From Phycisphaerae bacterium (GTDB lineage Bacteria; Planctomycetota; Phycisphaerae; UBA1845; PWPN01), in the NCBI GenBank assembly GCA_018003015.1, contig JAGNEZ010000005.1, positions 1 through 64,000 of the forward strand: 64,000 nt of DNA, in the 5' to 3' direction. Shown one piece after another: positions 16,652-52,259 of this stretch (positions are counted from its first letter, which is position 1; every line of letters begins with the position of its first letter). Below the pieces are notes generated by a model, which was not told where the DNA came from, made no database searches, and saw only the letters and a program-made list of their open reading frames with translations. A program made the position numbers and the translations under genes.

Positions 16652-19600
16652 ATGTATCCCGAGGATTCAGGACAGCGGACCGGTGTGGGCCTTGTCATGC
16701 GGATTGTCGTCGGCCTACTGCTGACGTCCACCTTCGCCGCCCAGGGCGCGCCGCTGATCACGTCCGTGACGGATGTTGCGGGCAATCCGCCCTTGATGAA
16801 CTATGGCGGCATCTACGGGTCGCAGCGTGAGAACGACAGCGGCTATCCCAACGCCACTCCGCCGGTGGCTCCGGCCATCCTATACTTCGGCGATCGTGTG
16901 TTCTGCATGACCGACCGGACGCACCAGTACGTGGCCCCGCGGTTTGAGGCGACCAGCGGCGTGCTGGGCGGGGATGCTCTGGGAGTCATTCCGCCCTACC
17001 TGGTTGGCGGCGAGTACGTTTCTACCCGGAATGACAACAAGAACGTTGCCGGTTTCCAGATTTCGGTCACGGTCGGCGCGGACGTCACCGCGTACCTGCT
17101 CATCGACAATCGGAATGGTGACACCAACAACGGTAATCCGCCCACGCTCGGGAACGGCACCATGGACTGGGTGGCTGCCGACGGGTGGACTCAGGCGGAT
17201 ACCGGTCTCTCCCCCAACATGCCGGACGGCTCGCGGCAGCCCGACTTCGTCGGCATCGACGAGGGAAGCAACCTCAATCCTGATCCCCCCAACACGGGCG
17301 CGGACTTCAACAACCGTCTGACGCTCACCACCAACCTGACTGGAGCCCCGGACAATTACTTCACCGTCTACAAGCAGGAGTTCAACGCCGGGGCGACGAT
17401 CGTGTTGAAGGAAGGCGACCTGGTGAACAGCAACAACGTGCACGGCATGGTAGTCGTCCCGAGACCCAGGGTCGTACCCGTCTGCGGTTTGCTGGTCGGC
17501 CCCGGGAACGTCTCGGCGCAGACCGCCGCGGGGGGCGCCGATCCAGTCGACTCGGTGGTCACCGTCCGGGCGTTCGGTGACGGCCCGGTTTCCTATCAGG
17601 CCCAGGAACTCGATGCCGACCAGAACGTCGCTAACGTTCCGTGGATGTCGCTGAGCAAGACCTTGGGCGGGCCAGTGGCCCCCCTGGGCAGCGACACGCT
17701 GTCGATCATTTACAGCATTACCGGCTTGAAGGTCGGAGTCTACAAGGCTTACGTCCGGATAACCGACACGTGCGACCCGACCCGGACATATCTGAGCGAA
17801 GTGACTCTTAGGATCCTTCCTGCGGACAGTGTCATCATTGGGATTTCGGAGTCCGGCGGCGATGGCGCAGGCTGGCCGGGTGCGCCCACCTCGCAGCGCG
17901 AGAATGACTACGGTTATCCCACCGCGGTGCCGCCGATTTCCGGGGCCATCGTGCCCTTCGATGCCAGCGCGCCGGGCGCACGGGTGTTCGCCTTCACCGA
18001 CCGCACGCACCAGTACGTCAGCGCTCGCTACGTCGAGGGAAGTGGCGTGCTGGCCACGGGCGGCGGCAATGTCGCTCCGGGCATACCGCCCTACCTGGTC
18101 GGCGGAGAGTATGTCTCGACCCGCAACAACAACCGCGACAACGCCGCCTTCAAGCTCAACGTCACCATCAATCCGAACCTGACCCGCGGCGTCTGGGCGT
18201 ATCTGCTGCTGGACAACCGACTTGGGCCTTCGGGCAACCAATCCAACGCCGACCCGCCGGTTCTGGGGAACGGCCTGATGGACTGGGTCGCGACTGACGG
18301 ATGGGCCCAGTACAGCACCGGGATGTTCCCGAACGGACAGCCCGACTATGTGGGTATCGACGAGGGAGGGACGCCGGGAAGCTGGAACGATCGCGCGGTG
18401 AATGCTGGCGGCCTTGATCAGTACCCCACCCAGTTCTACACCGTCTATCGGAAGGGTTTTGCCGGCGGCGAGATCATCCCCCTTCAACAGCAGAACGGTG
18501 GCGGCATCAACATGTACGGTCTGGTGGTGGTTCCGAGGATCCCGTGCCAGCTCAGCGTTCCGGGCAGTGTCAGCGCCACCGGGCTGCAGGATGGGGCCAA
18601 CCCGACCAATGTCATTGTGTCCATCAAGAACACCAGTGACGATCCGGTGGGTGTTTCCTACACGGTCGCCGAATTGGACGAGAACCAGAATGGTGCAGAC
18701 GTACCCTGGCTGGCCATCAGCAAGCTCGGCGGAGGGCCGATTGCCCAGGGCGCGACGGACACGCTGACACTCAGCTTTAATACGGCGGGCATGCTGATGG
18801 GCGACTACGTGGCTCATCTGCGGTTCACCAACGATTGCCCCGAACCGAAATCCAAGTTCATGAGAGTCGTCCTGACCATCCAACCGCCGGACCTGCGACT
18901 CCCGCAGCGGATGGCTCCCAACGGGATGTACGTCCAGCAGGTTGGCTCCATGACCTGGGACCAGGCCCGGGTGCACTACAACGCCAACATCAAGGGCAAT
19001 CTGCCGACCTTCCAGGGTGTTCCCGGTGACTGGACCGTCCCGGCGGACCGGTACATCGGCACGATCATTGGCAGTCACGCCGATATGTGGCTGCCGGGAA
19101 CCGACTCCGACGGGATCAGCTCCCTGGACGGCGCGAATCTGGGAGCCCTTCTGGGCACGGTCGAGGACACGTTCAAGTGGCTTGACGGCACCGCCGTCCC
19201 CACCGGTGACGTCAGCGTCGGCGGCCCGTGGAACACGGGCGAGCCCAACGACTACAACCTGGGCGTTCCCGGCGAGGATGCCATGGAGATCTACGCCAGT
19301 GGTTTGTGGAACGACAACGTCGTCGGGACGACGCTCGACCCGGCTCAGGGAGGTGGGGCTCGCCCGTACTACCTCCTGTACGACGGTGTGGATCTGAGCG
19401 CCCAGGGCAAGTTCAGAGTCATGTACCGGCCTGGCACGACCGCCAACCTGACCGAGGCGATCAATCTGCTCAATGGTCCGGCCGTCCTGGGGGATGCCAA
19501 GGGCCAGTACTACGCGATCAGCTTCGGCGACCCCGGCACAGGAGGGGGTGGGACCGGGAGCGGCGGCGCCTGGCGCGACTGGCCGAAGGCCCCCTGGCCG

Positions 19601-20272
19601 ACGGATGATCCGGTGGTGGCCAACAATGACGACGATAATTTCGTGAGCCGATCGACCGGCATCCTGATTGTTCCGGAGGCGGGGCAGTACACTTTTGTCG
19701 TCGCCCACGATGACGATTGCCTGTTCACCGTCGGCACTCAGCAGGCCGTCGGCGGGCCGTGCGATGGCTCCCAGCCGGTCTGCTCTCAGACCACGCTGGG
19801 GGGAGCAACGGCGAACGCCGTGGTGGTGACGTTTGCCCAGGCTGGTGAGTACCCGATGGAGCTGATCCAGAGAGAAGGTACTGGAGCATCTTACCTCCAG
19901 CTGTTCGCCGCTCAGGGCGACCGCACGGACGAGTTCAACAAGGGCTACCGTCAGGTCTTCCGTCTGGTTGGTGATGTGCTCGGCGGCGGCCTCGCGGTCA
20001 AGACGATCCCGGATGTGTGCGGTGTGGTGTTCGCCGATCGGGACCATGACGGGGATGTGGACCAGGTCGATTTCGGCCAGTTCCAGGCTTGCTTCAGCGG
20101 TAGTCTTGCCGCTCCAACCGACTGCAACTGCTTCGATCGGGACGGCTCCGACGCCTCGGGTGATGGTGACGTGGATGTGATGGACCTCCTGGCGTTCATG
20201 AATTGTTACACCGGTCCGGCGGTCGCTTGGTCGCAAGCGACGAATCCTGACTGCATCCCCGAGCGTCCATAG
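16652..20272 (+). CDS. large secreted modular protein: duplicated beta domain, C-type-lectin-like, PA14-like, dockerin-like tail
   Basis: The protein has 1206 residues; GGAAGGAGAG lies upstream of the ATG. The signal peptide is near residues 15-33. Two homologous units of about 290 residues follow (around 40-380 and 405-740), both with SQREND-GYP, FTDRTHQYV / MTDRTHQYV, PPYLVGGEYVSTRN, MDWVA-DGW and a shared VVVPR end. Residues about 770-900 look C-type-lectin-like (FKWLDGT, PWNTGEPNDYN, GLWNDN). Residues about 960-1110 resemble a PA14/anthrax-type domain (TGILIVPEAGQYTFVVAHDD). The C-terminus carries two Ca-binding loops (DRDHDGDVDQVDF, DASGDGDVDVMDL) of the dockerin/EF-hand type. It is probably a surface or secreted carbohydrate-binding protein. 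It stands alone, with its own hairpin after the stop. Confidence 0.85.
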   Translation: MYPEDSGQRTGVGLVMRIVVGLLLTSTFAAQGAPLITSVTDVAGNPPLMNYGGIYGSQRENDSGYPNATPPVAPAILYFGDRVFCMTDRTHQYVAPRFEATSGVLGGDALGVIPPYLVGGEYVSTRNDNKNVAGFQISVTVGADVTAYLLIDNRNGDTNNGNPPTLGNGTMDWVAADGWTQADTGLSPNMPDGSRQPDFVGIDEGSNLNPDPPNTGADFNNRLTLTTNLTGAPDNYFTVYKQEFNAGATIVLKEGDLVNSNNVHGMVVVPRPRVVPVCGLLVGPGNVSAQTAAGGADPVDSVVTVRAFGDGPVSYQAQELDADQNVANVPWMSLSKTLGGPVAPLGSDTLSIIYSITGLKVGVYKAYVRITDTCDPTRTYLSEVTLRILPADSVIIGISESGGDGAGWPGAPTSQRENDYGYPTAVPPISGAIVPFDASAPGARVFAFTDRTHQYVSARYVEGSGVLATGGGNVAPGIPPYLVGGEYVSTRNNNRDNAAFKLNVTINPNLTRGVWAYLLLDNRLGPSGNQSNADPPVLGNGLMDWVATDGWAQYSTGMFPNGQPDYVGIDEGGTPGSWNDRAVNAGGLDQYPTQFYTVYRKGFAGGEIIPLQQQNGGGINMYGLVVVPRIPCQLSVPGSVSATGLQDGANPTNVIVSIKNTSDDPVGVSYTVAELDENQNGADVPWLAISKLGGGPIAQGATDTLTLSFNTAGMLMGDYVAHLRFTNDCPEPKSKFMRVVLTIQPPDLRLPQRMAPNGMYVQQVGSMTWDQARVHYNANIKGNLPTFQGVPGDWTVPADRYIGTIIGSHADMWLPGTDSDGISSLDGANLGALLGTVEDTFKWLDGTAVPTGDVSVGGPWNTGEPNDYNLGVPGEDAMEIYASGLWNDNVVGTTLDPAQGGGARPYYLLYDGVDLSAQGKFRVMYRPGTTANLTEAINLLNGPAVLGDAKGQYYAISFGDPGTGGGGTGSGGAWRDWPKAPWPTDDPVVANNDDDNFVSRSTGILIVPEAGQYTFVVAHDDDCLFTVGTQQAVGGPCDGSQPVCSQTTLGGATANAVVVTFAQAGEYPMELIQREGTGASYLQLFAAQGDRTDEFNKGYRQVFRLVGDVLGGGLAVKTIPDVCGVVFADRDHDGDVDQVDFGQFQACFSGSLAAPTDCNCFDRDGSDASGDGDVDVMDLLAFMNCYTGPAVAWSQATNPDCIPERP

Positions 20273-39369: not shown

Positions 39370-40503
39370 TCAGTTGACGTTATCGCAGGCCTTGTCGGCC
39401 GGTATGCCCGGACCGCTGTAGCACGCGGCGAACTTTGCGAAATCGTCCATATCCACGTCGCCGTCACCGTCGTCCGGGGGGTTGAACAGGTGATCGGCAT
39501 TGCTGTCGTCACGGTCTAGGCAGGCACAGGCATCGGGATCGAAGGGGATGCCCGCGGGGCCGGAGAAGCACAACTGCCAGAGGCCGAAGTCCACCTGATC
39601 GACGTCGCTGTCACCATCCAGATCGGCGAAAGGATCGCGGCAGGAGCAGGCCGGAGTGCCGGCGCAGTTGGGATCGGCGCAGTCGGTCAGCCCGTTCCCG
39701 TCGTCGTCGATGTTGTTGTAGCATTGCATTTCGGGCATGGTACGGGCGGAGAAGTCATCCAGATCGACCCAGGACATGTCATTGCTGTTGGTGGTCGGCC
39801 CGTCTTCCTGGGCGACCAGACCGACGCCGCCGGACGGGTAGGGATCCTCCCGGTCGGTACACTGAATCTGCCACTCCTCCGGCTCGGTGGTGCCTTCCAT
39901 CCAGGTACGCGCTCGCACCCGGACTCCGCCGGCCACATCGAAGGCCTGGGCTCGAAGCCACCAGTTCTTGGTCACGTCGTGGTTGGGAATGGTGACCTCG
40001 CCGACGTCCGGGGCCTGGCAGAAGTCCTGGAAGTCAACCGGGATGAGCTTGGTCATGGCCAGGACGCCGGTATTGGTTGGTCCCACCAGGTAGCCCTTGA
40101 ACTGGAGCATGTTGAGGCGTACGCCCATGCCCAGCGTCATCCCCTTGGTGTTGGTGGCGTTGAGCGTCGCGTAGAGGGGATTGTTGGACCATTTGATGAG
40201 CACCTTGGCGTCGGTGTCGGCGAAGATGTCGTCTGGGTCGTACAGGCCACCGATGTCCTCGATAGGCGTGCCGTCGAAGGGGTTGATGTCGCCGGTGACG
40301 AACTTCACGCGGGCAGCGTTGTCCACGTTCAGCGGCGTGAAGCCGGTGAGACCGACGAGATACGCCGCGTAATCGAAGACGTCAAGGTCCTGGAGTGTGC
40401 CGTCGTTGAAATCACGCGTCCAATCGGCGCCGGGGGCCGGCAACGAAAGGCCCAGGATACCCGTCAATACCACTAGCGTACAGGTGTGGTGTTCGAACCG
40501 CAT
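39370..40503 (-). CDS. secreted protein with metal-binding repeat and dockerin-like tail
   Basis: The protein has 377 residues starting at 40503 after AAAGGGAGG. The signal peptide is MRFEHHTCTLVVLTGILGL, with cleavage near APGADW. Residues 25-260 form an unassigned beta-rich domain. Then comes a MopE-like Cys/Asp repeat (YNNIDDDGNGLTDCADPNC), and finally two Ca-binding dockerin/EF-hand-like loops (DLDGDSDVDQVDFGLWQLCF; DGDGDVDMDDFAKF). The tail matches those of the proteins at 16652 and 49279. Whether it binds a cohesin or acts as a surface tag in this phylum is not established. Confidence 0.85.
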   Translation of the reverse strand: MRFEHHTCTLVVLTGILGLSLPAPGADWTRDFNDGTLQDLDVFDYAAYLVGLTGFTPLNVDNAARVKFVTGDINPFDGTPIEDIGGLYDPDDIFADTDAKVLIKWSNNPLYATLNATNTKGMTLGMGVRLNMLQFKGYLVGPTNTGVLAMTKLIPVDFQDFCQAPDVGEVTIPNHDVTKNWWLRAQAFDVAGGVRVRARTWMEGTTEPEEWQIQCTDREDPYPSGGVGLVAQEDGPTTNSNDMSWVDLDDFSARTMPEMQCYNNIDDDGNGLTDCADPNCAGTPACSCRDPFADLDGDSDVDQVDFGLWQLCFSGPAGIPFDPDACACLDRDDSNADHLFNPPDDGDGDVDMDDFAKFAACYSGPGIPADKACDNVN

Positions 40504-40950
40504 GCGACTTCCTCCCTTTCTGCGACGTGTAGGCGACACAGGCCGGCTCGGGGCAAGGCGGAGTTGCTGGTCATCGCGACCGCCCCCGGTGGCGGGCAGA
40601 CAGCCCACCCTGGTCCGCGACCTCAGGTCGGGGCCTGCAGTCTTACCCTAGTCGAATTCTAGAACCGAAAGCTCCTATGGGCAAGAGGAATTCTGCGTTG
40701 GCCGCGTTACGGGCGAGCCTTTCCAAAGCCGAAGGGGCCTCGCCGAGGGGCTTCCTGGGAGTTGCTTGGCGGTTCCTCGGCATGATCAGAAGCATCCCAG
40801 GTCGAGGGTGGGAGGAAAGCTCTCGCCGCACCCTGTGCTCATCTGAGCCGAGGCCGACGGTCAGACCGATCAGGGAGTGCGAAACGCCATGCTCTCCGGC
40901 CTGGATAGCCGCGGGCGGATGCACCTTGATTCTGCCAGCCTGGGCGCGTT

Positions 40951-40971
40951 ATGCTAGACATACGGTAGCAT
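40951..40971. promoter_or_regulatory. operator-like inverted repeat over the -35 region
   Basis: ATGCTA (40951-40956) and TAGCAT (40966-40971) form a 6-9-6 inverted repeat that overlaps the -35 box and spacer of the PEP-CTERM gene promoter. This geometry is typical for a repressor or activator dimer. Confidence 0.45.
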
Positions 40972-40983
40972 GCGGCGTATCAT
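40955..40983 (+). promoter_or_regulatory. sigma-70 promoter of the PEP-CTERM gene
   Basis: TAGACA (40955-40960) and TATCAT (40978-40983) are separated by exactly 17 bases; each matches the consensus at five of six positions. The start near 40990 leaves a leader of about 168 bases. Confidence 0.65.
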
Positions 40984-41106
40984 GTATTGAGTCTACCTTT
41001 CAGGTGTCGAGGGGGGTCTTGGGGCAAAGAAGCTGCCCTGTCACGAGCAAGTCGTTCGTCCGGCCTGGGGCAATGTGCCTCCAGGAACGGTTGTATACCG
41101 AGTGAT

Positions 41107-41128
41107 GTCGGAGCACGAGCACTCCGAC
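41107..41128 (+). promoter_or_regulatory. leader hairpin before the PEP-CTERM gene
   Basis: GTCGGAG (41107-41113) pairs with CTCCGAC (41122-41128) over an eight-base loop, ending 30 bases before the ATG and just upstream of the GGAGGAG ribosome site. Confidence 0.45.
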
Positions 41129-41157
41129 CGACTCCATTCTGCGGGAGGAGAAACGAG

Positions 41158-41865
41158 ATGCTGAGATTCATCACTGCAGTCTGTGCGCTGGCCCTGGTGG
41201 CCGCTCCGGTGGTTGCGCTGGACACGTACTCATTCGTGATCGACCCGGCCAAATCGTCGATCGCGGTCGCGGTGGGTCTTAACCCCCCCGCCACGAGCCC
41301 TCTGACTGGCACGTACAGCCTGAAGCTGGGTACTGCGTCCGGGGCCTACAATACCCGCGACTGGAGCGTGCTTGCCGAACTGGACACGGTCAATGCGGTC
41401 AACACTGCCCCGCTGGCGGTCACGCCCATGCCGGGGGCGACGTACTCCATCGCGGCGGGTGATTTCGGGATCATCGATTTCAACTCGGACAAACTGGCGA
41501 TCCCGTCGACGACCTTGGCGGCGGAGGCGGCCAATGTTTACGCCGGCACCATCAGCACGAACGTCAAGAAGAACATCTGGATGTCTCTGAATGGCGGGAC
41601 GCCGACGCTGGACGATGGCTGGCAGATGTTCCCGGATCCGGGGGCTCCGACCAGTGCGTTCAACAGCCCGTTCACGATCCGGGTGTCGGATGCGGACTGG
41701 CTGGGCGTTGCCGGCCTGGGCGAACTGGAATCGCAGATCCAAGGTGTTGCGTACAAGGGCGGCCTGATCTACACGGTCAACATCTATGGCCGGGTGGTGC
41801 CCGAACCGGCGAGCCTGGGGCTTCTGGCCCTGGCCGGGCTGAGCCTGCTGCGGCGTCGTCGCTAA
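41158..41865 (+). CDS. PEP-CTERM sorted extracellular protein
   Basis: The protein has 235 residues starting MLRFITAVCALALVAAP at 41158, after GGGAGGAG. The signal peptide is cleaved near VVALDTY. The body is rich in beta and Thr/Ser/Ala with no known domain. The C-terminus is a canonical PEP-CTERM sorting signal: VPEPASLGLLALAGLSLL followed by a basic end. Such signals are handled by an exosortase (EpsH/XrtA type), which is not encoded in this window. The gene has its own promoter and an intrinsic terminator. Confidence 0.92.
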   Translation: MLRFITAVCALALVAAPVVALDTYSFVIDPAKSSIAVAVGLNPPATSPLTGTYSLKLGTASGAYNTRDWSVLAELDTVNAVNTAPLAVTPMPGATYSIAAGDFGIIDFNSDKLAIPSTTLAAEAANVYAGTISTNVKKNIWMSLNGGTPTLDDGWQMFPDPGAPTSAFNSPFTIRVSDADWLGVAGLGELESQIQGVAYKGGLIYTVNIYGRVVPEPASLGLLALAGLSLLRRRR

Positions 41866-45990: not shown

Positions 45991-46470
45991 ATGCACACTC
46001 CGTTCATCGGTGAAATCCTGCAGGAGATGGGTCTGCTTACTGGGCTTCAGGTCGAGGAGATTCTCGCCCACCAGCAGGTGACGCGGCAGAAGTTCGGGCA
46101 GATTGCGGTGCGCTGGGGTCTGGTCAATACCCAGCAGGTCTGGGAAGCCTGGGCGCGCCAGATGACCTCCCGCCGCCAGTTCGTCAAAGTGAACGAAGTT
46201 GGGATTGACACTGCGGCCGTGGAGCGGGTGACGGTTCCGACGGCGAGGAGCCTCGGAGTGGTTCCGCTGCGACTGTGGGGCGATCAACTCGTGGTGGCCG
46301 TTTCGCCGGATTGTTCCCCGAAAGCACTGTGTGACCTTGCGGAAGTCACCGGCTGCCAAGTACATGCTTGCGCCACTTTTCCGGAGGCGATCCGTTATCA
46401 CCTGGACCACCTGGAGGAGGAGCTACGGACCGATTGCGTACGGACGGAGTCCCTGCCGGCCGGTGCCTAG
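45991..46470 (+). CDS. solo MshEN (T2SS GspE N-terminal-like) protein
   Basis: The protein has 159 residues starting MHTPFIGEILQEMGLLTGLQ at 45991 after GAGGGG. It is a complete MshEN/GspE-N domain (VEEILAHQQVTRQKFGQIAV; LVNTQQVWEAWARQMTSRRQ; ERVTVPTARSLGVVPLRLWG; LVVAVSPD) but no ATPase follows. In MshE and some regulators this domain binds cyclic di-GMP. It lies 62 bases before a globin-coupled kinase, so it may add c-di-GMP input to that pathway. The binding motif RLGx8-LVx2G is only partly recognisable, so ligand binding is unsure. Confidence 0.82.
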   Translation: MHTPFIGEILQEMGLLTGLQVEEILAHQQVTRQKFGQIAVRWGLVNTQQVWEAWARQMTSRRQFVKVNEVGIDTAAVERVTVPTARSLGVVPLRLWGDQLVVAVSPDCSPKALCDLAEVTGCQVHACATFPEAIRYHLDHLEEELRTDCVRTESLPAGA

Positions 46471-46532
46471 GGACTGGTCGGCCGGATTGGCTCGAAGTCG
46501 CGAGGCCAGTGCGGCGCCGGTACAATGCGGTG

Positions 46533-47753
46533 ATGACTGCGTTCGCAGAGGATCTCATTCGCCGCCAGATCGAGTTCACCGAAGAGGACGAAGACCATGT
46601 CCACGCGCTGGCCTTGGCGGTGGGACCGGCGCTAGGCGTGATTGTGGATCGGCTCCTGGACCGATTGTTGCGTGACCCTCGGTTTGGCAGTGCTTTCACG
46701 GGCGGCCCGGCCCATTTCGACCGCTTCCGGGAGATGCTTCGGACCTGGGTTGGGGACATGGTAGGCGGTGACTACGGTCCGGACTACTGGATCCGACGAG
46801 CGGAGCTTCACCGTCCCCACCTTCACGCGGGTCTGGCCCAGCAACACATGCCGGTCTGTCTGGAGATCATCCGGCAGGAGGTGGATGCCGCGGTCCGGGC
46901 TTCCGGTTTGGCCGCCGCGGGGCGAAAGCTGGACTCGTTCGCCAAGCTCCTGACCATCGAATGCGTGGCCCTGCTCGACTCGTACAAGCGTGTCTCGGAC
47001 GACCACATTCGCTGGGAGGAGCGGACCATGGCCGAGGAGCGGCTGACCCGCTCCGAACACCTGGCCCAGCTGGGGCGGATGGCCGCTTCGCTGGCCCACG
47101 AGATCCGCAATCCCCTGGCCGGCATCAGCAGCGCGATCGAGGTCATCCGCGACGGCCTGGCGCTGAATGATCCGAGGCGGCACGTCATCCGCGAGGTCAT
47201 CGGGCAGATCACCCGACTGGACACTGCGGTGAAGGACATGCTCGACTATGCCCGTCCCTCGGCCCCCTTGCTGCATCCTTTGGATCTGCCCACCGCCGTG
47301 GAGCACATGCTGGAGGTCATCCGGGGCGCGCCGGCCACGCAGCATGTGGAGGTGGTGATGGTCTGTTCCGAACCGATGCCGGTCATTCTCGCGGACGCGG
47401 GGCAGATCGAGCACCTGGTGATGAACCTGGTTTTCAATGCCGCCCATGCTTCCCGGCGCGGCGGGCGGATTGAAGTGGTCTTTGCGCATGCGGGGGACCG
47501 GGTGGGCATGGCCATCGTCGACCATGGTCAGGGCATGGCTGAGGGCGTTCGACAGCGGGCCTTCGAGCCGTTCTACACGACCAAGGCCAAGGGCACGGGT
47601 CTGGGCCTGGCGATCTGTAAACGGATCGTGGAGGTTCATCAAGGGACGATCTCGCTGGAGAGCACGCCAGACGTCGGGACGCGGGTCACGGTGGAGTTTC
47701 CGGCGGCGCCGCCGGATCGCGCGACCGGAGCGGCGGCGGGGTACGAGGTTTGA
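46533..47753 (+). CDS. globin-coupled sensor histidine kinase
   Basis: The protein has 406 residues from the ATG at 46533; the frame runs 55 codons upstream but overlaps the previous gene. Residues 5-150 form a protoglobin domain: FRDP-type start RLLRDPRFGSAF, WVGDMVGGDYGPDYWIRR and the proximal-His helix AELHRPHLHAGL, with His96 as likely haem ligand. After a linker come the H-box ASLAHEIRNPLAGIS (His189), N-box NLVFNAAHA, DHGQGM and GTGLGLAICK. It would be soluble and sense oxygen, NO or redox through haem. The sigma-54 regulator downstream is its obvious partner. Confidence 0.88.
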   Translation: MTAFAEDLIRRQIEFTEEDEDHVHALALAVGPALGVIVDRLLDRLLRDPRFGSAFTGGPAHFDRFREMLRTWVGDMVGGDYGPDYWIRRAELHRPHLHAGLAQQHMPVCLEIIRQEVDAAVRASGLAAAGRKLDSFAKLLTIECVALLDSYKRVSDDHIRWEERTMAEERLTRSEHLAQLGRMAASLAHEIRNPLAGISSAIEVIRDGLALNDPRRHVIREVIGQITRLDTAVKDMLDYARPSAPLLHPLDLPTAVEHMLEVIRGAPATQHVEVVMVCSEPMPVILADAGQIEHLVMNLVFNAAHASRRGGRIEVVFAHAGDRVGMAIVDHGQGMAEGVRQRAFEPFYTTKAKGTGLGLAICKRIVEVHQGTISLESTPDVGTRVTVEFPAAPPDRATGAAAGYEV

Positions 47754-47867
47754 GAAGAGGCGTTGGTCACGGGTGATGAGTGACCCGCGGCGTAGAAGGG
47801 GTGCGGGCAGGCGACGGGCGGTTGGCCCGGGGTGAAGGCTGGAGTTCCTGGGGGACAGCGAGCGAGC

Positions 47868-49232
47868 ATGTTCGTCAAGCTACTGATCATCGAGGATGAG
47901 AGTCTGATCCGGTGGTCGCTCCGGCAGAAGCTCGAGGAGCGAGGCTATCAGGTTTCGGAGGCCGAGGACGGTGCGGAGGCCGCGGTTCGACTGTCTGAAG
48001 GTCCGTACGATCTGGTTCTTCTGGACCATCGTCTTCCCGACGTTACCGGGCTGGATCTTCTGCGCCGGATCCGGGAGACGAACCAGGATTTGCTGGTCAT
48101 CATGATCACTGCGTACAGCAGGATCGAGGACGCGGTGGAGGCGATCAAGCTTGGGGCCTTCGACTACGTGGCCAAGCCGTTCAACATGGACGAGTTGCTG
48201 CACACGGTGGAGACGGCCCTGGAGACGACCAAGCTGCGCCGCGAGGTGCGGCGGCTGCGGGGGCGGCTCCACCACGAGTACGGCTTCGATCGGATCATTG
48301 GGCAGGATCCGAGCATGCTGGCGCTGTTCGAGGTCATCCGAGACGTGGCCCGCAGCCCGAGTTCCACGGTCTTTCTCCGCGGCGAGACGGGCACGGGCAA
48401 GGACCTGGTGGCCGGGGTGATCCACTACAACTCGGAGCGGGCTCTTGGTCCGTTCATGAACATCACCTGCACGGCCATATCCGAGACGCTTCTGGAGAGC
48501 GAGCTCTTCGGGCACGAGAAAGGAGCGTTCACCGACGCCCGGAGCGAGAAGAAGGGGCTGTTCGAACTGGCCGACGGAGGGACGGTGTTTCTTGACGAGG
48601 TCGGGGACATGCCGCCGCGGCTGCAGGCGAAACTGCTGCATTTCCTAGAGGTCCGCCGGTTTCGGAGGGTTGGTGGAACACAGGAACTCTCGGTGGATGT
48701 TCGGGTCATTGCCGCCACCCACCAGAACCTCGAGAAGGCCATTGCCGAAGGCCGTTTTCGCCGGGACCTCATGTACCGGCTCAATGTGGTACCTGTCTTT
48801 CTACCGCCGCTTCGCGACCGCGGGGACGATGTCCGCCTGCTGGCCCAGAGCCTGGTCGACCAATACTCGCGCGAGTTCAAGAAGTCCGTGAGGCGAATCG
48901 AGGAGGCGGTCATGGACAAGCTGCGGAGGCACAACTGGCCGGGCAATGTCCGCGAGCTGCGCAACGTTATCGAGCGGGCGGTGCTGCTGACCAAGAGCGA
49001 CACGTTGACCGTGAGCGATATCGTGCTGGGTACTGGCGGCCAGGGGGCGGAGGTCGACAGCCTGGCGGAGATCAACCTCCCACCTGCGGGCCTGAATTTC
49101 GAGGAACTCGAGAAGAAGCTGGTCGGCCAAGCTCTGGCTCGCGCCGGCGGCAACCAGAGCCAGGCAGCCAAGCTGCTCGGCCTCTCCCGGGACACGTTCC
49201 GGTATCGGCTGGAGAAGCACGGGTTGCTTTGA
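47868..49232 (+). CDS. NtrC-family sigma-54 response regulator
   Basis: The protein has 454 residues. The receiver (LLIIEDESLIRWSLRQKL; Asp53 in DLVLLDHRLPDVTG; MITAYSR; VAKPFNMDE) is canonical. The AAA+ domain has GETGTGKDLV, the sigma-54 contact loop as GAFTDA (Asp223 instead of Gly) and TVFLDEVGDMPP. The Fis HTH is GGNQSQAAKLLGLSRDTFRY. The Asp variant of the loop is known in natural activators and usually still contacts sigma-54. Coming 115 bases after the globin-coupled kinase, it is likely the output of that haem sensor. Confidence 0.92.
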   Translation: MFVKLLIIEDESLIRWSLRQKLEERGYQVSEAEDGAEAAVRLSEGPYDLVLLDHRLPDVTGLDLLRRIRETNQDLLVIMITAYSRIEDAVEAIKLGAFDYVAKPFNMDELLHTVETALETTKLRREVRRLRGRLHHEYGFDRIIGQDPSMLALFEVIRDVARSPSSTVFLRGETGTGKDLVAGVIHYNSERALGPFMNITCTAISETLLESELFGHEKGAFTDARSEKKGLFELADGGTVFLDEVGDMPPRLQAKLLHFLEVRRFRRVGGTQELSVDVRVIAATHQNLEKAIAEGRFRRDLMYRLNVVPVFLPPLRDRGDDVRLLAQSLVDQYSREFKKSVRRIEEAVMDKLRRHNWPGNVRELRNVIERAVLLTKSDTLTVSDIVLGTGGQGAEVDSLAEINLPPAGLNFEELEKKLVGQALARAGGNQSQAAKLLGLSRDTFRYRLEKHGLL

Positions 49233-49278: not shown

Positions 49279-50115
49279 TCAATCGTCGCACGCCGGATCG
49301 ACGGCCTCGACGGCGGAGTAGCATCGCTGGAGGAGGCCGAAGTCCTGCTGATCGATGGCGTTGTCTCCGTTGCGATCAAGGCACTTGCAGTCCGGGGCCA
49401 CGGTGTCGCCCAGGGGAATCGCGGGGCCGGTGTAACAGGCGATGAAAGCGTCGAGATCCTGGGCGTCCACGAAGCCGTCGTCGTTGACATCGAAGACCGG
49501 GTCGTGCATGCCGCAGAGCTGGCTGAAGAAGGCGTCATCCAGGAAGGCGGAGCCGCCGTCGACCGGCGGTCCCTGCACTTCGACGAGAACGAGCTGGGCG
49601 AAGGCGGTGCCGGCCGGGGCGGGAGCCGTGCCCAGCCCGAAGCCCAACCATTCATCCCTGGGCGTGGCCTCATCGGCCACCCGGACCTCGTAGACGTTGA
49701 CACCCGCCAGCCAGGTTCCGCCGACCGGTCCCATGACGGCATCGAGGAACTCGATTTTCATGACGCAGAAGTTGCCGGCGCCCATGGGGTCCGAGCTGTC
49801 GTTTCGCGCGTAAACGCGGGCGACCCAGGTCTGACCCTCGGCCGCCGCAAAGACCTGGGTTACACCCGTGCCGCCCCAGATATCCCAGGGGCCGAACATC
49901 TTCAGGACCTGGCCGCCCGAGTAGGGTGTCACACGCTGGGTCACCCACCGGGTACTCGGATCGCCGAACTCGGTCCACTGGGCAACGGGCTGGGCATCGA
50001 GGCCGATGGGCGTCTCGAAGCTGGGGTTGGCGAGCAGATTGCCTGCCCAGGCGTTGCTCGGGCCCATCAGGCCGACGAGAAACACGCCCACACCGGCACA
50101 GAGTCTCTGGAACAT
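49279..50115 (-). CDS. secreted protein with dockerin-like tail (tandem paralog A)
   Basis: The protein has 278 residues starting MFQRLCAGVGVFLVGLMG at 50115, after AAGGAGAG. Signal peptide cleavage is near NAWAGN. Residues 24-200 form a carbohydrate-binding-like jelly-roll domain (NLLANPSFETP, RWVTQRVTPYSGGQVLKMFG, ARNDSSDPMGAGNFCVMKIE). The C-terminus has two Ca-binding loops (DVNDDGFVDAQDLDAF; DRNGDNAIDQQDFGLL). The same globular domain occurs in the next gene upstream with a different tail. Confidence 0.88.
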   Translation of the reverse strand: MFQRLCAGVGVFLVGLMGPSNAWAGNLLANPSFETPIGLDAQPVAQWTEFGDPSTRWVTQRVTPYSGGQVLKMFGPWDIWGGTGVTQVFAAAEGQTWVARVYARNDSSDPMGAGNFCVMKIEFLDAVMGPVGGTWLAGVNVYEVRVADEATPRDEWLGFGLGTAPAPAGTAFAQLVLVEVQGPPVDGGSAFLDDAFFSQLCGMHDPVFDVNDDGFVDAQDLDAFIACYTGPAIPLGDTVAPDCKCLDRNGDNAIDQQDFGLLQRCYSAVEAVDPACDD

Positions 50116-50199
50116 GGAAGGCTCTCCTTCTGGGCGGAGGTTGCCATGGAAGCCCTCCGCGGTGAAGACCCGGCACACACCTGCCACGGCGGACACGCC

Positions 50200-50883
50200 T
50201 CACCCGCGGGGCCGACGCAGGAAGGCAAGGCTGGCGAGAGCCAGCAGCGAGAACGATGCCGGCTCAGGAACGATGCCGAAGGAAGCGTCGTCAAGGAAAA
50301 CCGAGCCGCCGGTGACCGGATCGTTGCCCTGGACCTCGACGAGGACATACTGAGCGACGGCCGTCCCGGCGGGAGCGGTGATCGGGCCGGTGGTGAAGTA
50401 CTGCCAGGTGTTGAGGGGTGACAAGGCGTCCGCCACGCGGACCTCGAACAGATTGACGCCCGTCGCCCACCCGCCGCCGGCCGGCGCGCCGCTCGCGTCG
50501 TAGAACTCGACCTTCATCACGCAGAAGTTGGCGCCCTGCATGGCGTCAATGCTGTCGTTGCGCGAGTAGACTCCGGCCTCCCAGAGCTGGCCTTCGGCAG
50601 CGGGGAAGGCCTGGGTCATCCCGGTGCCGGCCCACTGGCTCCAAGGGCCGAACATCTTGAGGGACTGCAGGCCGGAGTTGGCGGGCACACCTCGTGTCAC
50701 CCAGCGGGTCCACGGCTCGCCGAACTCGTTCCAGCCGGTGACACCCGTCTGGTCTCCGGCCGCCGCATCCGGAGCCTCAAAGCCGGGGTTGGCCAGCAGG
50801 TTCGCCGCCACGGCCGATCCGACGGGCGAGAGCAGGGCAAACATGGCTGCAAGCGAGATGCCAACCGTGATCCTGCTGAACAT
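50200..50883 (-). CDS. PEP-CTERM secreted protein (tandem paralog B)
   Basis: The protein has 227 residues starting MFSRITVGISLAAMFALL at 50883, after GGAAAGGAG. Signal peptide cleavage is near AVAANL. The mature domain (NLLANPGFEAPDA, RWVTRGVPANSGLQSLKMFG, SRNDSIDAMQGANFCVMKVE, FEVRVAD, VQGNDPVTGGSVFLDDASFG) is plainly homologous to the neighbour. It ends in a PEP-CTERM signal (IVPEPASFSLLALASLAFL, then arginines). Only 84 bases separate the two genes. It was probably formed by tandem duplication followed by a tail exchange. Confidence 0.9.
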   Translation of the reverse strand: MFSRITVGISLAAMFALLSPVGSAVAANLLANPGFEAPDAAAGDQTGVTGWNEFGEPWTRWVTRGVPANSGLQSLKMFGPWSQWAGTGMTQAFPAAEGQLWEAGVYSRNDSIDAMQGANFCVMKVEFYDASGAPAGGGWATGVNLFEVRVADALSPLNTWQYFTTGPITAPAGTAVAQYVLVEVQGNDPVTGGSVFLDDASFGIVPEPASFSLLALASLAFLRRPRG

Positions 50884-51485: not shown

Positions 51486-51552
51486 CAGATAGATACGTTC
51501 TTCCTGGGGATTCTGCGAACGGGTTGGTTCTTGGCCAGGAGGTGGTCCGAGC

Positions 51553-52259
51553 ATGAGGCCACGAGCCTGGAGTCTGAGGTCTTCCCGATACTCGTCGTCG
51601 CCCTCATGGTGGGGACATGGCCGGCTGCCGGCAGCGTCCAGGTTGTTTGTTACGTGGATGACGACGCATCTCTGGGTGGCGATGGCAAGGCTTGGGTGAC
51701 GGCGTACAGGGATCTGCAGGACGCGTTGGCGGCAGCCCGCGTCTCGGCGGGCTCGGTCCGCGAGATCTGGGTTGCGGCGGGCACCTACCGCCCCGATCTG
51801 GGTGCCGCCGTCTCCAGTGGGTCTTCCACCACCACGCTGCTCAGTGACTGTCGGTTCGCGCAGCATCCCAACGGCGTCGTGAGTCAGGATGCCGGAAGCC
51901 TGACCATGACCCGGTGCCGGTTCGAGGACAACTCCGGTTCGGGGTAATACACGGTCAGCCTGTACGGGTGCCATGCGGTGATGGCGGAATGCGCCTTCAC
52001 GCGGAACGGCTCCAAGGGCGCGGTGGTAACCCGTCCCGAGTGCGTCACTGCCCACTTGGATGACGACGGCGACGTTGACATCAGTGACCTGTTCATCTTT
52101 CGCCGGTGCATGACCGGGGAGGGAATACCCGGTGATCCGCATTGTGCCGAGCAAGCACCGCGCCCCGCGGGCTCCGCGGTTCGACCGAGCCGGGAGCCGC
52201 GGCCCCGACGAGCGGGCCGCTCGGGAAGACTTGCCGCGAACGGCCGCGGCCGCTCATGA
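51553..52259 (+). pseudogene. broken secreted beta-helix (choice-of-anchor type) protein with dockerin-like tail
   Basis: AGGAGG precedes an ATG at 51553, but the reading frame of the body is a different one, so a frameshift lies within the signal peptide (ILVVALMVGTWPAAG). The body has the planctomycete parallel-beta-helix start (CYVDDDASLGGDGKAWVTAY, LQDALAAARVSAGSVREIWV, AAGTYRPD), then jumps to late beta-helix repeats (DCRFAQHPNGVVSQDAGSLT; CAFTRNGSKGA) and a dockerin-like DDDGDVDISDLFIF. An in-frame TAA stands at 51945-51947. Intact relatives run to 400 residues or more, so an internal deletion is also likely. The last 35 or so codons run into unrelated sequence. Confidence 0.75.

Follow-up and report, generated by a model that had tools for sequence, protein, structure and literature searches.

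PEP-CTERM has been described as a module appended to protein bodies whose homologues lack the tail (Haft 2006, PMC1569441). That system comprises a PEP motif, a hydrophobic stretch and a basic end on proteins with a signal peptide, together with many targets per genome and an exosortase, and all of these features recur in the genome considered here. What sets the present case apart is that the tail is paired with dockerin tails; in the open-access literature searched, no paper was found that treats PEP-CTERM and dockerin together with a planctomycete or an exosortase. One body family can also carry alternative C-terminal signals, namely GlyGly-CTERM, LPXTG and PEP-CTERM (Haft 2011, PMC3237569). 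The likeness lies in the different C-terminal signals on one body family. However, in those cases all signals are of the motif-TM-basic form and were compared between species, whereas here the PEP-CTERM tail alternates with a Ca-loop module in neighboring genes of one genome, and does so repeatedly.

The other related systems are those of dockerins and cohesins, including the cohesin-dockerin "planctosome" proposed for freshwater Planctomycetes (PMC6461901). They share with the present case a C-terminal two-repeat Ca-loop module on secreted proteins and the occurrence of cohesin-dockerin proteins in Planctomycetes. The present tails differ in having conserved cysteines, in being very many against one protein with two cohesins, and in being mixed with PEP-CTERM paralogues. 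The role of the abundant dockerin-like tails of planctomycetes, which occur with almost no cohesins, is the puzzle behind this finding.

Two neighboring genes with a common secreted domain

The DNA analyzed (hereafter the window) is a stretch of 64,000 nucleotides at the start of contig JAGNEZ010000005.1 of a Phycisphaerae bacterium, whose assembly amounts to 6.86 Mb. Two genes, B and A, lie on its minus strand, B first and A 84 bases downstream, with the following features.

50200-50883, minus strand: gene B, 227 aa, with signal peptide, likely CBM4/9/16-like domain and PEP-CTERM tail (open reading frame, SD-like site, orthologue in G361)
50278-50805, minus strand: shared body domain of gene B, residues 27-202, 57% identical to gene A
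50203-50271, minus strand: predicted PEP-CTERM tail of B, with VPEP motif, hydrophobic stretch and RRPRG (PF07589, 22.3 bits in the genome scan, above the cut-off)
50116-50199, minus strand: spacer of 84 bases separating the co-directional genes B and A, operon-like
49279-50115, minus strand: gene A, 278 aa, with signal peptide, B-type domain and cysteine-rich dockerin tail (open reading frame, SD-like site, orthologue in G361)
49525-50043, minus strand: shared body domain of gene A, residues 25-197, 57% identical to gene B
49282-49524, minus strand: predicted dockerin tail of A, residues 198-278 (PF00404, 23.2 bits; own model A3, E 8.5e-21; dN/dS 0.07)
49456-49491, minus strand: first Ca-type loop of the A tail, DVNDDGFVDAQD, from the sequence
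49342-49377, minus strand: second Ca-type loop of the A tail, DRNGDNAIDQQD, from the sequence

By eye, an SD-like AGAAGGAG or AAAGGAG can be recognized upstream of each ATG (50115 in A and 50883 in B), as can an N-terminal signal peptide on both proteins. A sigma-54 promoter upstream of B was considered and rejected, because the -24/-12 pattern is no commoner than chance in the window. Convergent with gene A, a histidine kinase and a sigma-54-type response regulator are encoded on the plus strand (46368-49232); their top NCBIfam matches are AtoS/AtoC, models of PEP-CTERM regulators score lower, and all of these matches are below their own cut-offs.

The first-pass annotation had described two neighbors with a common secreted domain, one ending in two dockerin-like Ca loops and the other in a PEP-CTERM signal, and both genes bear out this description. 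It had further held that low identity on alignment would indicate family-level resemblance rather than recent duplication. By BLASTP, A and B are identical at 115 of 202 positions (57%, E 3e-69) in an alignment that spans the signal peptide to the domain end and stops at FLDDA-(F/S)-F, the final residues ahead of either tail. Recent duplication is ruled out by a dS of about 1.1 between A and B, which is near saturation and compares with about 0.15 between each gene and its sister-species orthologue. Because of this dS and a nucleotide identity of 64%, the duplication is taken to be old. The pair is present, with identical order and tails, in the sister species of the same genus (G361), where the orthologue of B has 97% protein identity over 202 aa, so a chimeric assembly is unlikely. 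The nearest named record carrying the pair is Planctomycetota bin RA.bin145, of the same genus. Relative to the sister species, dN/dS is 0.10 and 0.12 for the domains of the pair and 0.07 for the dockerin tail of A, as low as for its domain (0.10); the PEP tail of B, measured over 25 codons only, is less constrained (0.43). The pair and both tails are under purifying selection in the genus, and the tail swap is old.

The shared domain, about 175 aa in length, is likely a CBM4/9/16-like jelly roll and probably binds glycans, as judged from its homologues. The A and B bodies themselves have no match in Pfam or NCBIfam, CBM_4_9 (PF02018) included. Among 47 homologues of the domain collected from the class, nine match CBM_4_9, and a profile of the 47 matches the PDB CBM chains 2zex and 2zew (E about 7e-5), which belong to an S-layer-associated endoglucanase. 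Likeness to CBM families 4, 9 and 16 therefore consists in this profile similarity, in the NLLxNPxFE start and in relatives in which the domain is fused to GH16 with a dockerin; unlike members of those families, A and B fall below the Pfam model, and any carbohydrate ligand is putative. AlphaFold gave a pLDDT of 34.5 for A, from a shallow alignment of four sequences, and 51.8 for the A tail alone.

The two tails and their alternation

The tail of A scores 23.2 bits against Pfam Dockerin_1 (PF00404; cut-off 22.9) and contains, by eye, two complete DxNxDxxxDxxD loops. Its profile matches in the PDB include the dockerins 2vn5 and 6kgc, with EF-hands scoring equally or better. By its two Ca-loop repeats and the profile match it is classed as a type I dockerin, for which cohesin binding is predicted. 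Many tails go undetected with Pfam Dockerin_1, which gave 97 matches in the genome. A model built from the genome's own tails gave 176, some of them partial, and 120 matches in a relative of the same family from another genus (G343). The alignment underlying this model comprises 14 tails of the genome and shows five invariant cysteines, with which five of the six cysteines in the A tail align. The cysteine-dockerin tail is strictly C-terminal in 115 of the 123 open reading frames extracted.

At the C-terminus of B, IVPEPASFSLLALASLAFLRRPRG, the PEP motif, the hydrophobic stretch and the basic cluster are all present. Against Pfam PEP-CTERM (PF07589), this tail reaches 18.3 bits in the protein scan, below the cut-off of 20.7, and 22.3 bits in the genome scan. 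The genome contains 62 PEP-CTERM matches and two exosortases (PF09721, 205 and 177 bits; TIGR02602, 149 and 134 bits, cut-off 105.55). On the tail features and the exosortases of the genome, B is classed as a predicted PEP-CTERM/exosortase target, which would be cleaved and attached to the surface.

When tail-stripped bodies (62 PEP and 127 dockerin) were compared all against all, it became apparent that the pair is one of many. The dockerin bodies were incompletely sampled, a second batch having been picked partly for nearness to PEP genes. Twelve of the 62 PEP-CTERM proteins have a homologous dockerin-tailed neighbor within 7 kb, whereas 10,000 shuffles of the PEP identities, which test the adjacency of relatives and not the choice of tail, gave 0.32 such proteins on average and never more than 4. 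Relatives exist for 31 of the PEP proteins, and for 24 of these the best one is dockerin-tailed. The homologous neighbor pairs comprise 16 mixed (at 12 loci), nine dockerin-dockerin and two PEP-PEP pairs, a mixed share that is not clearly beyond random labels; the strongest 16 links involving a PEP protein are all mixed. The two genes are on the same strand in 15 of the 16 mixed pairs, identities reach 76% (contig C74), 74% (C2) and 66% (C16), and in most pairs the match extends to the final residues ahead of the PEP tail. Four loci are co-directional dockerin/PEP/dockerin triplets (C57, C63, C37 and C78). Dockerin partners are often multi-domain, and at five loci the partner has two body copies against one in the PEP protein. 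By single linkage, both tails are found in 15 body families of this genome. In G343, a PEP protein and a dockerin protein that are 70% identical are adjacent, and a second locus is weaker; in another family of the order (G101), at one locus, a PEP-tailed copy of the A/B domain lies beside dockerin-tailed ones.

Among distant homologues, the domain occurs with each of the two tails, or in a fusion with GH16 and a dockerin. In other families, PEP-CTERM tails predominate among short stand-alone homologues and dockerins among large ones. The domain tree has at least five changes between tails among clearly typed rows, and groups A and B, with moderate support, with the PEP-tailed proteins of G332 and G243. 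Because A and B join these PEP-tailed proteins, A probably gained its dockerin; a change from PEP to dockerin on the A branch is the likelier direction, at forks that are moderately supported. The first-pass annotation had spoken of direct evidence for exchange of C-terminal tags. Alternation is supported by these comparisons and widened to 15 body families, 12 adjacent loci, another genus and another family; as to mechanism the wording was too strong, since duplication followed by tail replacement is what the sequences point to indirectly.

Receptors and the display of the paralogues

The arrangement suggests that one protein may be displayed in two ways, either of which can stand in for the other. 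In the explanation that we favor, and hold as a whole with moderate confidence, A and B arose by an old tandem duplication, and their secreted, probably glycan-binding domain is displayed through two attachment routes. B, with a PEP-CTERM tail that is likely ancestral, would be cleaved by an exosortase and become attached to the outer surface or to exopolysaccharide. In A, a cysteine-rich dockerin tail would have taken the place of the PEP-CTERM tail at the domain boundary, and through it the protein may be held non-covalently and Ca-dependently by a dockerin receptor. The pair would be one case of a genome-wide habit, in which PEP-CTERM proteins stand beside same-strand, often two-copy dockerin paralogues. 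This explanation starts from what is observed, namely the body homology, both tails and their conservation, the recurrence and the exosortases; glycan binding, the processing of the tails and the final place of each protein are predictions. It is weakened by a dockerin receptor that is nearly missing, the less constrained PEP tail of B, the moderate support in the tree, A and B bodies outside the CBM model and the pLDDT of 34.

The receptor question turns on the cohesins. Only one protein of the genome has them, a 2099-aa S8 protease on contig C63 (L185:653-6949, minus strand) that also contains TIG. It has two cohesins and two dockerins; the final dockerin belongs to the bulk type of the genome. 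A four-cohesin model revealed no hidden cohesin among the open reading frames extracted, and cohesin was undetected in 23 of the 31 genomes searched (this one included), among them the dockerin-rich G101. The only cohesin of G343 is in a short secreted protein of 185 aa that carries a PEP-CTERM tail (L329:1342-1896, minus strand); the cohesin scores 29.1 bits, above the cut-off, and the tail 20.1 bits in the protein scan, just under the cut-off, and 21.6 in the genome scan, over it. This protein is a possible exosortase-anchored dockerin receptor. In G245, the C-terminus that follows the cohesin is hydrophobic and TM-like.

The nearly missing receptor gives some weight to another reading, which we consider doubtful yet worth keeping in view: the dockerin tail may itself be a sorting signal, read by an export or anchoring machinery other than cohesins, so that two C-terminal codes would run in parallel. 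The strictly C-terminal position in 115 of 123 reading frames, the single sequence model that covers very different bodies, the extra conserved cysteines and the many genomes with cohesin undetected, G101 included, fit this reading. However, the Ca loops of both repeats follow the pattern seen in ordinary dockerins. A small number of cohesin proteins are also present, one of them with a PEP-CTERM tail, and the Pfam model could overlook cohesins that have diverged.

That the tails direct their proteins to different places, as first hinted, is plausible. The cohesin protein of G343, itself PEP-CTERM-tailed, would even allow both tails to lead to one surface instead. Exosortase-anchored cohesins could exist and capture dockerin-tailed paralogues; because cohesins are scarce, such capture is unlikely as a general rule. 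We regard as unlikely the corresponding linked arrangement, in which the exosortase would fix PEP-CTERM proteins, some bearing cohesins like that of L329, and dockerin paralogues would dock on this layer or an equivalent. If it held, each family would have a fixed copy with one domain and, encoded next door, an exchangeable copy that often has two.

Classical docking, with dockerin-tailed proteins assembled on a cohesin scaffold as in a cellulosome or the proposed planctosome of freshwater Planctomycetes (PMC6461901), is decidedly improbable: the S8 protease with its two cohesins and two dockerins would be the candidate, but its two cohesins face 176 tail matches and sit on a protease bearing the same tail, and most relatives have no detectable cohesin. 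Least probable, and very unlikely in our view, is that the tails are loosely used modules with no difference in sorting, the mixed pairs being leftovers of tandem duplication and domain shuffling. The pair counts (16, nine and two, not clearly beyond random labels) and the often multi-domain dockerin partners agree with this, but the purifying selection on the A tail, the strongest 16 PEP-involving links, all mixed, and the recurrence in other genera argue against it. For the two attachment routes that we favor, sibling pairs differing mainly in the tail are natural controls, in which body, genome and locus are all the same; they allow a direct test of the role of each tail, and of whether PEP-CTERM and dockerin serve one surface or two.

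Tail variants and further tails

Of 115 tails, 42 belong to a dockerin subtype in which CxC precedes the second loop. It is found on contigs C74, C57, C84, C37, C63, C22 and others, and is overrepresented among bodies that are also seen with PEP-CTERM tails. In this genome, by a post hoc comparison, 21 of 42 such tails against 8 of 73 others have a PEP relative (p 1e-5; p 0.02 in a held-out part). Plain adjacency to PEP genes was not replicated in G343 (6 of 14 against 4 of 16, p 0.44), and the link between the subtype and PEP neighbors, which is post hoc and replicated only in part, is retained as a lead only. In the window, a 1206-aa open reading frame (16652-20272, plus strand) has a CxC-type dockerin tail, and its body has relatives among the PEP-CTERM proteins of contigs C43 (37%) and C33 (35%).

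Within 39370-41865, a PEP-CTERM protein (40987-41865, plus strand) lies beside a partial cysteine-dockerin match (39502-39630, minus strand), with no body homology detected between the two. At 51531-52259 (plus strand), what remains of a secreted protein of the beta-helix type lies in one frame and includes half of a cysteine-dockerin tail, DDDGDVDISDLFIFRRCMTGEGIPGDPHC; it is probably a decayed gene, because there is an in-frame stop near 51945. In genome G282, a protein with apparently two A/B-type domains (L221:2978-4564, plus strand) ends in another two-repeat tail (DFNxNGVFPEDQDVIDFFDVLAGGTPATC, twice) that has no Pfam match. In genome G072, GH16 and an A/B-type domain are followed by a dockerin and then directly by PEP-CTERM, so that both tails are on one protein (L236:2050-3609, plus strand).
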